This document shows, piece by piece, positions 22,284 to 24,714 of a stretch of 45,121 nucleotides of DNA. Numbering within the stretch: the stretch's first letter is position 1; every line of letters starts with the position of its first letter. The notes beneath the pieces are model-generated. The model did no database searches and was not told where the DNA came from. It worked only from the letters and a program-made list of their open reading frames with translations. This stretch comes from a bacterium. Lineage in GTDB: Bacteria > SM23-31. A program made the translations under genes and the position numbers. The stretch is from positions 1-45,121 of the forward strand of contig JANQEH010000105.1 of NCBI GenBank assembly GCA_028278455.1, given 5' to 3'.

Positions 22284-23144
22284 ATGAGAGTGAGACATAT
22301 TTTCCTGATAATTTTTTTCTGCCTTTCTTCTTATTCCGCGAGGCCTTTTCTAGATCCTATTAAACATGCCTACACTCCGGCGCCTAAGCAGGATATAGCT
22401 GACGGAGAAGCTGAAGTAATATATCTTAACCACAGCGGATGGGCAGTGAAAACCAGCGGTCATTTCCTTATTTTCGATTACTGGCAGGGCCGCGGATCAG
22501 GCGGAACTGAGAGATCACTGAAGAATGGTTATATTGATCCGGCTGAGATCAGTGATGAAAATGTAATAGTATTCGTATCCCATTCACACGGAGACCACTA
22601 CGACCGAATAATACACGAATGGGAAGGTAAGATTGGAAATATCGAATACGTTTTCGGCTGGAGAGCGACTCGTGGTCCCGATCATCATTGCATAACCGGG
22701 GAGCGCCAGAGCCTGAAGGTCGGGGATGCACAGATCGATGTCGTTAACCACAGAATAGACGGTGTCCCGGAGGTTGCTTTTCTTGTGCGGGTGGACGGTA
22801 TAACGGCATACCATTCAGGTGATCACGGCTTCTACAAGGGATCGCAAACGGAATTATACGAGAGCAATATAGACTATTTAGCGGGACTTACTGATAAAGT
22901 AGACCTTGCGTTCATTATGGCGGTTGACGGAGGGGGAAGGATCACGAAATACACCCCGACAATTATCGAGGGGGCTTTTTATACTGCGGAAAAACTCAAT
23001 GTACAGGTCCTTTTCCCGATGCACGGCGGAGGATTCGAGCACTACTACGGGGAATTCTTTGAATTAGCAAAAACTAAGAATATAAACTATACTGTTTTCC
23101 CCGCCTCTAAACGCGGCGATATCTTTCACTATAAGGGGAGTTGA
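22284..23144 (+). CDS. Exported metallo-beta-lactamase-fold hydrolase
   Basis: A signal peptide (about residues 1-19) precedes an MBL domain with the metal motif H100-S-H102-G-D104-H105 and later H177 with 'SGDHG', plus 'FPMHGG' near the end. The pattern resembles the UlaG/UPF0173 branch, which includes lactonases and phosphodiesterase-like enzymes; the substrate cannot be read. GAGG seven bases before the ATG fits the start. It is divergent from unit 5. The protein has 286 residues and seems complete. Confidence 0.8.
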   Translation: MRVRHIFLIIFFCLSSYSARPFLDPIKHAYTPAPKQDIADGEAEVIYLNHSGWAVKTSGHFLIFDYWQGRGSGGTERSLKNGYIDPAEISDENVIVFVSHSHGDHYDRIIHEWEGKIGNIEYVFGWRATRGPDHHCITGERQSLKVGDAQIDVVNHRIDGVPEVAFLVRVDGITAYHSGDHGFYKGSQTELYESNIDYLAGLTDKVDLAFIMAVDGGGRITKYTPTIIEGAFYTAEKLNVQVLFPMHGGGFEHYYGEFFELAKTKNINYTVFPASKRGDIFHYKGS

Positions 23145-23236
23145 GGGTGGGTATTAGATACTAATAACTTTCAAATAGAATTTAGTAATACATTAATTGG
23201 ATAATCAATCGCTCTATTAACATAACTCTATTCGTT

Positions 23237-23268
23237 AACCTGTCATCCTGAACTTGTTTCAGGATCTA
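23237..23268. repeat. Left copy of 32-bp inverted repeat (REP-like) flanking GIY-YIG gene
   Basis: This 32-base segment is the exact reverse complement of 23625-23656. Inside it, ATCCTGAA and TTCAGGAT form an 8-bp hairpin around five bases. In one frame the family encodes CHPELVSGS, a peptide often mis-annotated in Bacteroidota genomes. Confidence 0.9.
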
Positions 23269-23338
23269 TTTGAATTGTATTGTTCATGATTAACTTCCAT
23301 TATTGAGTAATTGCCTTTTGTATTTAAAGGTTCAGTAG

Positions 23339-23650
23339 ATGTACTACGTATATATTTTAACAAATAAAAAATTACGCCCACTATATATTGGTGCTACAAA
23401 TAATCTCGAAAGAAGGATATTTGAACATAAAACTGGGGAGTTTGAAGGTTTTTCTAATAATTACAATTTGAAAATATTGCTTCATTTTGAAGAATATGAA
23501 TATGTTAGAGATGCTATTAAGAAAGAAATACAATTAAAAAACTGGTATAAAGAATGGAAGCTAGATTTAATCCAGAAAACCAATTGTAGCTTTGTCGATA
23601 TTGCTGAAGATTGGTTCACAGATTTAGATCCTGAAACAAGTTCAGGATGA
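23339..23650 (+). CDS. GIY-YIG domain endonuclease (URI type), embedded in palindromic repeats
   Basis: This 103-residue protein shows the GIY-YIG core: 'YYVYILTNKK' (the 'GIY' strand), 'LYIGATNNLERRI' (the 'YIG' strand with catalytic R) and a later acidic region with 'KKEIQLKNWYKEWK'. Single-domain members of this kind are small nicking or cutting enzymes of unknown target. The last residues and the TGA stop are encoded inside the right-hand repeat, so gene and repeat are physically fused. The whole unit, repeat-gene-repeat, spans 23237-23656. The gene is AT-rich against its neighbours. A role in repeat spread is possible but inferred. Confidence 0.85.
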   Translation: MYYVYILTNKKLRPLYIGATNNLERRIFEHKTGEFEGFSNNYNLKILLHFEEYEYVRDAIKKEIQLKNWYKEWKLDLIQKTNCSFVDIAEDWFTDLDPETSSG

Positions 23651-23656
23651 CAGGTT
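23625..23656. repeat. Right copy of the 32-bp inverted repeat, overlapping the GIY-YIG stop codon
   Basis: This is the exact reverse complement of 23237-23268. It contains the final codons and stop of the GIY-YIG gene and forms an 8-bp hairpin that could also end transcription from both sides. Confidence 0.9.
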
Positions 23657-23686
23657 GTTGCATAACAACTCATTGATTGATATTAT

Positions 23687-24619
23687 TCACCCAAGGTAAA
23701 CATATTCATTATGCCATCTCAGATAATGGTTCTGTGGTAAATTATATGACTCAAAAGGTAGAATTTTCAAAGAGTTGCCATGATATTTGTAATAGTCCCG
23801 TCCGTTTTCGTATTCTTCTTTTATCTTTCTACTGACTTCAACCTTCTTATCTGTATTTACAGTAATGTATCCCTTATCAAATAGTATATGCAAATCAGCG
23901 CGTAGAAGAATTCCATTGCTTATTATATTTGGTCCACTCTTAGAAAATGGTTTAATATGACCTGCCTCAAGAACCGGTAGAGTTTTCTCTCCTGAAATAG
24001 CACAGCTTTTGTTATAAGCACTTGTAACTAAAATGCGAAAAGCTCCCTGACCTATTCGCCCTCTGGTAAGATATTCTTGACCATACACTGGATTTGGATC
24101 ATTTGCAGTTAAATCTGTTTCCAATGTTTCGGTATTTTGATTTTGAGAATATAGAGCCATCTGAACCTGATTCCATGTTTTCTCACCAATACTATCAAAA
24201 ATATCATAGGTTTTTCCTGGTACTATGCCCTTTTTCCAGTTTTTAGGTATAGGAATCCAGTTTTCTCTATCTAGCCAGAAAGGTTCATTAAGTATTATAC
24301 ATGTTATATCCGGATCATGCTCAGAAGATTTTCGATGTGATAATATTAGTTTTCGAAAACTCTCAAAACTTTCTGCACCGTTTTTGTTTCCAAATACTTT
24401 CCATGCAATTGAAAGCGGTAATTTCTCAGCCTTTACGAAAAAACCACCACCTGTTATATAATTCAGAGGGCTGTGCAGTTTAAAAAGGAATGGGCTACCA
24501 ACGTCAATTGCCTTAAATCCCATACCGCTTGGACGCCAGAAATTAACTTCTTCAGGCTTCAGCGAAGCTAAATAACTATACCATTCATTATCTGTGACTC
24601 CAATGAAATATTTCATCAT
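23687..24619 (-). CDS. HNH endonuclease with N-terminal PUA/EVE-like domain
   Basis: The 310-residue protein has two parts. Residues 1 to about 150 ('YFIGVTDNEWYSYL', 'PFLFKLHSPLNYI', 'GGGFFVKAEKLP') resemble a PUA/EVE-type base reader. Residues from about 190 onward hold an HNH_2-type nuclease: 'CAISGEKTLPVLEAGHIKP' with the catalytic H, then 'NGILLRADLHILFDKGYITV' as N...H. The combination of a reader and a nuclease is typical of modification-dependent (type IV) restriction enzymes, so defence against modified phage DNA is a fair guess. The reader call is from memory of related proteins. There is a second ATG start one codon later. No methylase is nearby. Confidence 0.72.
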   Translation of the reverse strand: MMKYFIGVTDNEWYSYLASLKPEEVNFWRPSGMGFKAIDVGSPFLFKLHSPLNYITGGGFFVKAEKLPLSIAWKVFGNKNGAESFESFRKLILSHRKSSEHDPDITCIILNEPFWLDRENWIPIPKNWKKGIVPGKTYDIFDSIGEKTWNQVQMALYSQNQNTETLETDLTANDPNPVYGQEYLTRGRIGQGAFRILVTSAYNKSCAISGEKTLPVLEAGHIKPFSKSGPNIISNGILLRADLHILFDKGYITVNTDKKVEVSRKIKEEYENGRDYYKYHGNSLKILPFESYNLPQNHYLRWHNEYVYLG

Positions 24620-24714
24620 AATCCTTGATGAATTTGTAATATTGGCAACACAAAATTAAAATAAAAAATAAAAATAGTCAAGAAGTAAAATACTATATAT
24701 ACTTCCCCTCCCCT

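Follow-up and report, generated by a model that had tools for sequence, protein, structure and literature searches.

RAYT systems have REP sequences in inverted orientation on their flanks and are accompanied by gene-less REP dimers (REPINs). GIY-YIG homing endonucleases of the I-TevI type belong to the same catalytic domain family as the nuclease described below, follow a selfish-gene logic and possibly spread by break and copy. CGTC REPs consist of a CGTC, TGTC or CCTC tag, a stem of 8-9 starting with AT, a loop of 4-5 and a short unpaired tail, mostly CCA. They are dispersed, multicopy and mostly arranged as head-to-head dimers, and include dRS3 (the neisserial family-1 repeats) and RPE-6 and RPE-4 (the family-1 and family-4 repeats of Rickettsia conorii, respectively) (Di Nocera, De Gregorio & Rocco, 2013; PMC3733652). 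In the accessible portion of that paper, CGTC REPs "apparently lack a dedicated transposase", no associated enzyme gene is reported and the enzyme question is named as open. Transposases were monitored in that study, and repeats in hypothetical ORFs of <120 aa were left out of its intragenic pool.

Within the 45,121-nucleotide stretch of bacterial DNA analyzed here (the window), a small GIY-YIG nuclease gene lies between inverted repeats. The arrangement resembles the REPtron/RAYT, a small single-gene unit with cognate REPs, as described in the accessible part of PMC8266576. The RAYT enzyme is a HuH tyrosine transposase (TnpA-REP) and its tag is GTAG, whereas the window product is a PF01541 GIY-YIG protein and the window-type tag is TGTC/CGTC. 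We conclude that the unit is probably the autonomous form of a REP-type element, with the GIY-YIG nuclease as the dedicated enzyme of its REP family.

Anatomy of the window unit

The left repeat (23237-23268, plus strand) and the right repeat (23625-23656, minus strand) are 32-nt arms, 100% complementary to each other and separated by 356 nt. The left arm consists of AACC, the tag TGTC, ATCCTGAA-CTTGT-TTCAGGAT and CTA, and the right arm is its mirror image. The tag (23241-23244, mirrored at 23649-23652) is followed by a stem strand (23245-23252), the loop (23253-23257), the second stem strand (23258-23265) and the tail (23266-23268). Folding yields an 8-bp stem and a 5-nt loop in both arms (−6.1 and −6.5 kcal/mol as single-stranded DNA; z −3.5 and −3.8). 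In a search with the 19-nt core at up to three mismatches, the two arms were the sole sites in the window, against 0.01 expected in shuffles.

The nuclease gene (23339-23650, plus strand; 103 aa) is an open reading frame supported by a PF01541 match, a structure model and the UPF0213 and Slx1 folds discussed below. Its TGA stop (23648-23650) comprises the last base of the right stem and the first two bases of the tag. The original prediction of exact 32-bp inverted repeats, each itself an 8-bp hairpin and the right one encoding the end and stop of the nuclease, is therefore borne out in all three respects. The repeat-gene-repeat box is also real, and its proposed extent of 420 bases was revised: from outer tag to outer tag the unit spans 412 bp (23241-23652, plus strand), a boundary inferred from homologous units elsewhere, and the AACC/GGTT identity beyond the tags is extra to it.

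The TGTC tag, 8-bp stem starting with AT, 5-nt loop and 3-nt tail are shared with the CGTC/TGTC REP superfamily as set out in the accessible text of PMC3733652, as are a high copy number (25 in the source genome) and head-to-head dimers (26 in eight other genomes, for a related repeat). The tail in that superfamily is mostly CCA, as it is in most repeats of related units, whereas the window repeat has CTA. The stem and loop lengths of the window repeat match family 2 of that classification, and those of the TGTCATTCCCGC-GAAA type match family 1. The superfamily as published there comes without an enzyme gene, whereas here such repeats flank GIY-YIG genes.

Next to the unit lie a gene of the metallo-beta-lactamase fold and one for an HNH protein, neither of which is counted as part of it. 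The HNH gene (23687-24619, minus strand) ends 31 bp past the right repeat, and shows weak likeness to phosphorothioate-type restriction nucleases (69 bits, cut-off 180) and to PADLOC HNH models. A 42%-identical paralog of the beta-lactamase-fold gene is present on another contig (L317, G000 contig 256); downstream of it, in the same orientation, lies a degenerate copy of the window repeat (L317, 40615-40633) that may be there by chance.

Nuclease genes and repeats across genomes

Searching the draft source genome (5.28 Mb in 318 contigs) with the 19-nt core at up to two mismatches gave 25 sites, against 0 for the reversed control. Five PF01541 matches are present in this genome. The nuclease genes of the window (contig C252) and of contig C28 both lie between inverted copies of the window repeat, and in C28 the right copy again gives the protein end and stop (DPETILG, stop). 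The match in C61, with a broken open frame, lies between inverted copies of another repeat. The match in C297 adjoins tRNA-Ser genes, and that in C44 (580-aa frame) has no copy of the window repeat. Only four of the 25 repeat copies flank a GIY-YIG gene, and contigs C77, C138 and C136 carry gene-less head-to-head pairs of the window repeat or near variants.

A sample of six genomes from the phylum contained 18 matches to the nuclease. Inverted tagged repeats flank eight of the nine best matches (E ≤2e-17), and the ninth (L054) is flanked by direct repeats. Four of these eight units have the window repeat in common (two in G000 and one each in G001 and G004, three genomes of different genera), three (L033, L051 and L053) have the repeat type TGTCATTCC or TGTCTTTCC, and one (L035) has TGTCATTGCGAGG. 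The remaining nine matches include one with an inverted pair (L037), two cut by contig ends (L052 and L039), five adjoining tRNA- or tmRNA-like 3′ ends, and one with neither feature (L041). Genome G005 has 23 window-repeat copies at up to one mismatch with no gene found between two of them, which argues against a strict link.

For a broader survey, 84,980 species genomes were scanned with a narrower alignment (A2), alignment A1 being too divergent, and the best 80 of 547 relatives were taken; their record titles show at least 15 phylum-level names. Five of the 80 loci were dropped because a contig end lay within 200 bp, leaving 75, and 191 other ORFs from the same 75 loci served as controls. 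Inverted repeats with a score ≥14 surround 58 of the 75 genes and 2 of the 191 control ORFs (Fisher 2e-40), and 17 of the genes lack such a strong inverted repeat. Hairpins defined by a GTC tag and a stem of 8 or more (one mismatch) point outward on both sides in 47/75 genes and 0/191 controls (Fisher 7e-33), a count that is probably low since detection misses older or longer hairpins. Hairpins with the tag inward occur on both sides in 12/75 genes and 0/191 controls. Since the loci are the best 80 of 547 and the profile was built on repeat-flanked relatives, the proportions 58/75 and 47/75 apply to that clade.

A second sample, overlapping the 75-gene set, comprised 40 genomes chosen for holding such a gene. 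From these, 130 matches were taken, two of them cut by contig ends, with up to 12 per genome among the matches listed by the profile search. An inverted repeat score ≥14 was found for 34/42 matches at ≥140 bits and 32/43 at 100-140 bits (66/85 at ≥100 bits), and for 4/8 at 60-100 bits, 4/13 at 45-60 bits and 7/22 below. This fall with bit score indicates that one clade of GIY-YIG proteins has the strongest repeat link. At several of the weaker matches, CCTC-type palindromes or tRNA direct repeats are present instead. Viral contigs contain two relatives, one of which (L079) lies between inverted repeats, and no relative was found in GenBank phages at E 1e-8.

The window locus is an exact instance of this broad and statistically strong pattern, and its description as a minimal repeat-plus-nuclease element with REP-RAYT logic is supported as anatomy and as evolution. 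The expectation that GIY-YIG genes always lie between inverted copies was too strong: the link extends through the source genome, the phylum and at least 15 phyla, at 58/75 and not 75/75. As a genome-wide rule it runs from gene to repeat and not from repeat to gene.

Several loci depart from the simple arrangement. In Neisseria gonorrhoeae (NZ_CP119142.1; L291, about 1850-2350), a GIY-YIG relative lies among dRS3-like repeats, the nearest of which have their tags toward the gene, opposite to the usual orientation. In Bradyrhizobium (L200-L202, L205 and L206) and Azospirillum 4B (L300), the gene is flanked on each side by a complete head-to-head repeat dimer in place of a single repeat. At L215, on G034 contig 631, where the gene occupies 1001-1261 of the reverse complement, the unit follows roughly the first 25 codons of a host gene (MKSDIILSGVGGQGILSIAAT...). 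Just downstream, an open frame begins with these codons again, in a copy that differs at the nucleotide level (87% over 76 bp), as if the host gene start had been duplicated or restored. Another set of GIY-YIG genes directly follows tRNA or tmRNA genes detected with ARAGORN (L055, 1501-1710; L036, 1501-1704; L056, 1501-1701; L040, 1501-1701; and L264, L280, L286 and L289, near 1001). Several of the tRNA-adjoining genes have a duplicated tRNA 3′ part on their far side, as though insertion had taken place in a tRNA gene and its 3′ end had been restored.

The association was also examined from the side of the repeats, with 134 copies of one repeat type from eight genomes. Neighboring copies within 700 bp make up 26 head-to-head pairs, one tail-to-tail pair and one head-to-tail pair; 81 copies are unpaired. 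Of the 26 head-to-head pairs, 18 are short (35-81 bp) and contain no gene, and each of the eight long ones (332-380 bp) holds a GIY-YIG gene. These counts bear on the possibility that the REPs are moved by another enzyme (RAYT, IS200 type or other) and that GIY-YIG genes were trapped between two of them. Solo repeats and gene-less dimers far outnumber gene-bearing units, as such trapping would allow, and hairpin cutting by the nuclease is a prediction. However, trapping predicts varied cargo, yet eight of eight long pairs hold the same kind of gene; PMC3733652, in its accessible portion, reports no transposase gene flanked by CGTC REPs; and protein and repeat co-diversify (see below). We consider a trapped passenger gene unlikely.

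Gene-less head-to-head dimers with the same ends as the units occur in the same genomes. The window repeat (up to two mismatches) is present in nine of the 40 genomes: in all three with a gene bearing ends of its class (G022, G028 and G034) and in six of 37 where no such gene was seen (G023, G035, G037, G039, G040 and G043), a distribution (C(9,3)/C(40,3)=0.0085) for which classes were assigned post hoc and gene status came from a subset of matches. Genome G039 was ruled out as one with a matching gene, as the flanks of its L220 are a different palindrome. G028 has 59 copies of the window repeat, many in head-to-head heterodimers. The two arms of these, ATCCTGAA and ATGCTGAA, are identical to the ends found on the two GIY-YIG units of G028 (L244 and L228). 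Judged from sequence, these heterodimers have the appearance expected of gene-less dimers mobilized in trans, which falls short of proof. Strict dependence is argued against by the many copies far from any such gene and by repeat-bearing genomes in which a matching gene was not found.

Unit ends and occupied sites

The two ends of a unit match each other better than they match those of other units. End matches ≥24 were observed for 28/75 genes with their own flanks and 6/75 when flanks were mispaired. Across 77 units from 24 genomes with at least two units each, the left-right score averaged 20.6 within a unit and 10.1 against other units of the same genome; a unit's own score exceeded that of the best other unit in 58/77 cases, with 7 ties and 12 losses (Wilcoxon p 4e-13). 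Same-genome paralogs have differing repeats, each matched left to right, and the better match of own ends over those of same-genome units indicates that several cognate pairs coexist in one cell.

The tags are also where similarity ends. Loci with similar units and dissimilar flanks were compared in pairs, which are not independent. The left break fell within 6 bp of the GTC tag in both members in 168/221 pairs (random 14.1, maximum 24), and the right break fell at GAC in 191/249 pairs (random 15.9, maximum 28). At identities of ≥74%, similarity broke at the tags in 20/27 (left) and 11/21 (right). The units of L149 and L147, in Aminicenantes and Nitrospira records (compared as L181/L183), share 86% identity across the 351 bp that run from GTCATTCC to GGAATGAC, and their flanks are unrelated. 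An alphaproteobacterial contig with two unit copies 30 kb apart is another example of similarity ending at the tags.

With a multicopy repeat family, some genes will fall between two copies, so the arrangement could in principle reflect chance or composition, two repeats of a common family having ended up around a small gene. The absence of outward hairpins on both sides of any of the 191 control ORFs and the failure of random positions to reproduce the boundaries exclude this for the family as a whole, and we regard it as exceedingly improbable.

Repeat and protein also co-diversify. Protein identity correlates with repeat similarity (rho 0.63, n=69; permuted maximum 0.23), and the correlation persisted after thinning to n=54 (rho 0.61 vs 0.33 permuted). 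The window unit is not among the 69, since the start of its right hairpin falls within the gene and exceeds the 15-nt limit.

Units are present and absent at orthologous sites, as was foreseen for filled and empty sites; the comparisons come from Azospirillum and Sphingobium plasmids, both away from the window locus. In Azospirillum lipoferum 4B, a unit (gene between two dimers) lies between sufB and sufC, and three Azospirillum relatives with flanks 95-96.5% identical have neither gene nor repeat at this site. On Sphingobium megaplasmids, the repeat-gene-repeat unit lies between fnrL and a response regulator gene in the three filled strains read (of seven listed). In TomTYG64 and TomTYG74, that site is occupied by a single symmetric palindrome of the form CGTC-stem-loop-stem-GACG, the TomTYG74 copy being mutated; a repeat of this kind is absent in TomTYG72, TomTYG65 and S. 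herbicidovorans. The filled strains group together as a clade (100/100) from which TomTYG64 is excluded. Insertion into the palindrome and collapse of the unit via its 8-bp stems both fit this pattern. A few single repeats near the site are asymmetric, with the tag on one side and the tail on the other, which slightly favors collapse, as the symmetric form may be a collapsed dimer.

As a sub-case of the REP-type element proposed here, the nuclease might act by classical homing only, cutting an existing symmetric REP palindrome so that homologous repair copies the unit in, with the unit never entering REP-less DNA. The palindromes of TomTYG64 and TomTYG74, exactly where filled strains have the unit, and the branching of TomTYG64 outside the filled clade are what such homing would leave. 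The three Azospirillum empty sites that were read hold no repeat, and the asymmetry of the single repeats near the Sphingobium site speaks slightly for collapse instead, making homing alone doubtful.

Like insertion sequences and MITEs, the window unit has inverted ends; no target-site duplication was seen in the two filled/empty comparisons (Azospirillum and Sphingobium). Candidate empty sites in Shinella and Novosphingobium were too diverged for the junction to be read, no usable empty site was among the matches listed for the flanks of Rhizobium CIAT894 and R. tumorigenes, and the gene flanking the window unit had no match in five phylum relatives.

The nuclease and its proposed role

The 103-aa product matches PF01541 (GIY-YIG) at 52 bits (cut-off 22.6, E 8.8e-14), with T5orf172 as its sole other Pfam match. 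Its structure model has a pLDDT of 87. The UPF0213 proteins 1ywl and 1zg2, whose entries are titled hypothetical protein, are the closest solved sequences, and the closest folds are 1zg2, followed by Slx1 (which works with Slx4, according to entry titles) and the UvrC N-terminal domain. Of these folds, 1zg2 alone reaches E 0.001. The GIY-YIG core columns Y, Y, G, R, H, E and N are 99-100% conserved among 69 relatives, and dN/dS is 0.03-0.17 in 11 of 13 pairs of related nuclease genes, the other two being saturated. The GIY-YIG proteins of these units are under purifying selection.

The domain with its conserved core residues is shared with GIY-YIG homing endonucleases. Those act at one allelic site, whereas repeats of the window type offer many dispersed palindromic sites, and the 103-aa model contains no separate DNA-binding domain. 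An intron-borne endonuclease is disfavored because no Rfam family matched 22500-24700 at the gathering score, and an anti-phage defense gene was rejected because none of the PADLOC defense families matched the GIY-YIG protein.

Purifying selection and a fold closest to UPF0213 and to the structure-specific nuclease Slx1 would also suit a housekeeping enzyme that processes REP hairpins or cruciforms for the host, in repair or relief of replication stalls, from a gene that stays immobile among its substrates. Such a role is at odds with units present or absent at orthologous sites and with similarity that ends at the tags, with up to 12 matches per genome bearing different repeats, and with cross-phylum similarity confined to the unit, as in L181/L183. 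We judge it improbable, on a par with the trapping of a passenger gene.

Under the REP-type element reading that we prefer, the two TGTC-tagged hairpins would be one REP in head-to-head inverted copies enclosing the nuclease gene. We infer a pathway in which the nuclease would recognize its own tag plus hairpin in cruciform or single-stranded form, a target proposed because the nuclease fold resembles branch-cutting Slx1. The enzyme would nick or break the tagged hairpin, and repair of the break would then place copies elsewhere, either of the unit itself or, in trans, of a gene-less dimer, giving the unit its presumed mobility. A break at an existing REP would amount to homing, and entry into REP-less DNA to transposition; the Sphingobium sites fit the first and the Azospirillum sites the second.

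There is perhaps an even chance that the GIY-YIG protein is the missing mobility enzyme of the whole CGTC/TGTC REP superfamily, dRS3 and RPE-4/RPE-6 included, acting by hydrolytic hairpin nicking and not by covalent HuH chemistry. If true, this would explain the origin of CGTC REPs and give RAYT a counterpart, a second REP-enzyme system with a different chemistry, and a REP plus private nuclease would have evolved at least twice in bacteria, from unrelated enzymes. CGTC-type REPs span many phyla and shape intergenic DNA, and no enzyme had been tied to them before; with a conserved nuclease of about 100 residues and a cognate hairpin, the REP enzyme question becomes testable in a tube. To our knowledge, an autonomous unit of 0.4 kb would rank among the smallest mobile units.

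As far as our searches reach, the link between GIY-YIG proteins and REPs is new: none of the open-access papers among the matches listed joins GIY-YIG to REP, dRS3, RAYT, MITE or REPIN, and the terms nuclease, RAYT and transposase are absent from the accessible text of RepRanger (2025). UPF0213 appeared in a single open-access paper among the matches listed. On the plasmid records AP027312.1, AP027319.1 and AP027322.1, genes of the family are annotated "excinuclease ABC subunit C", a label that could make REP surveys score these units as repeats within repair genes.
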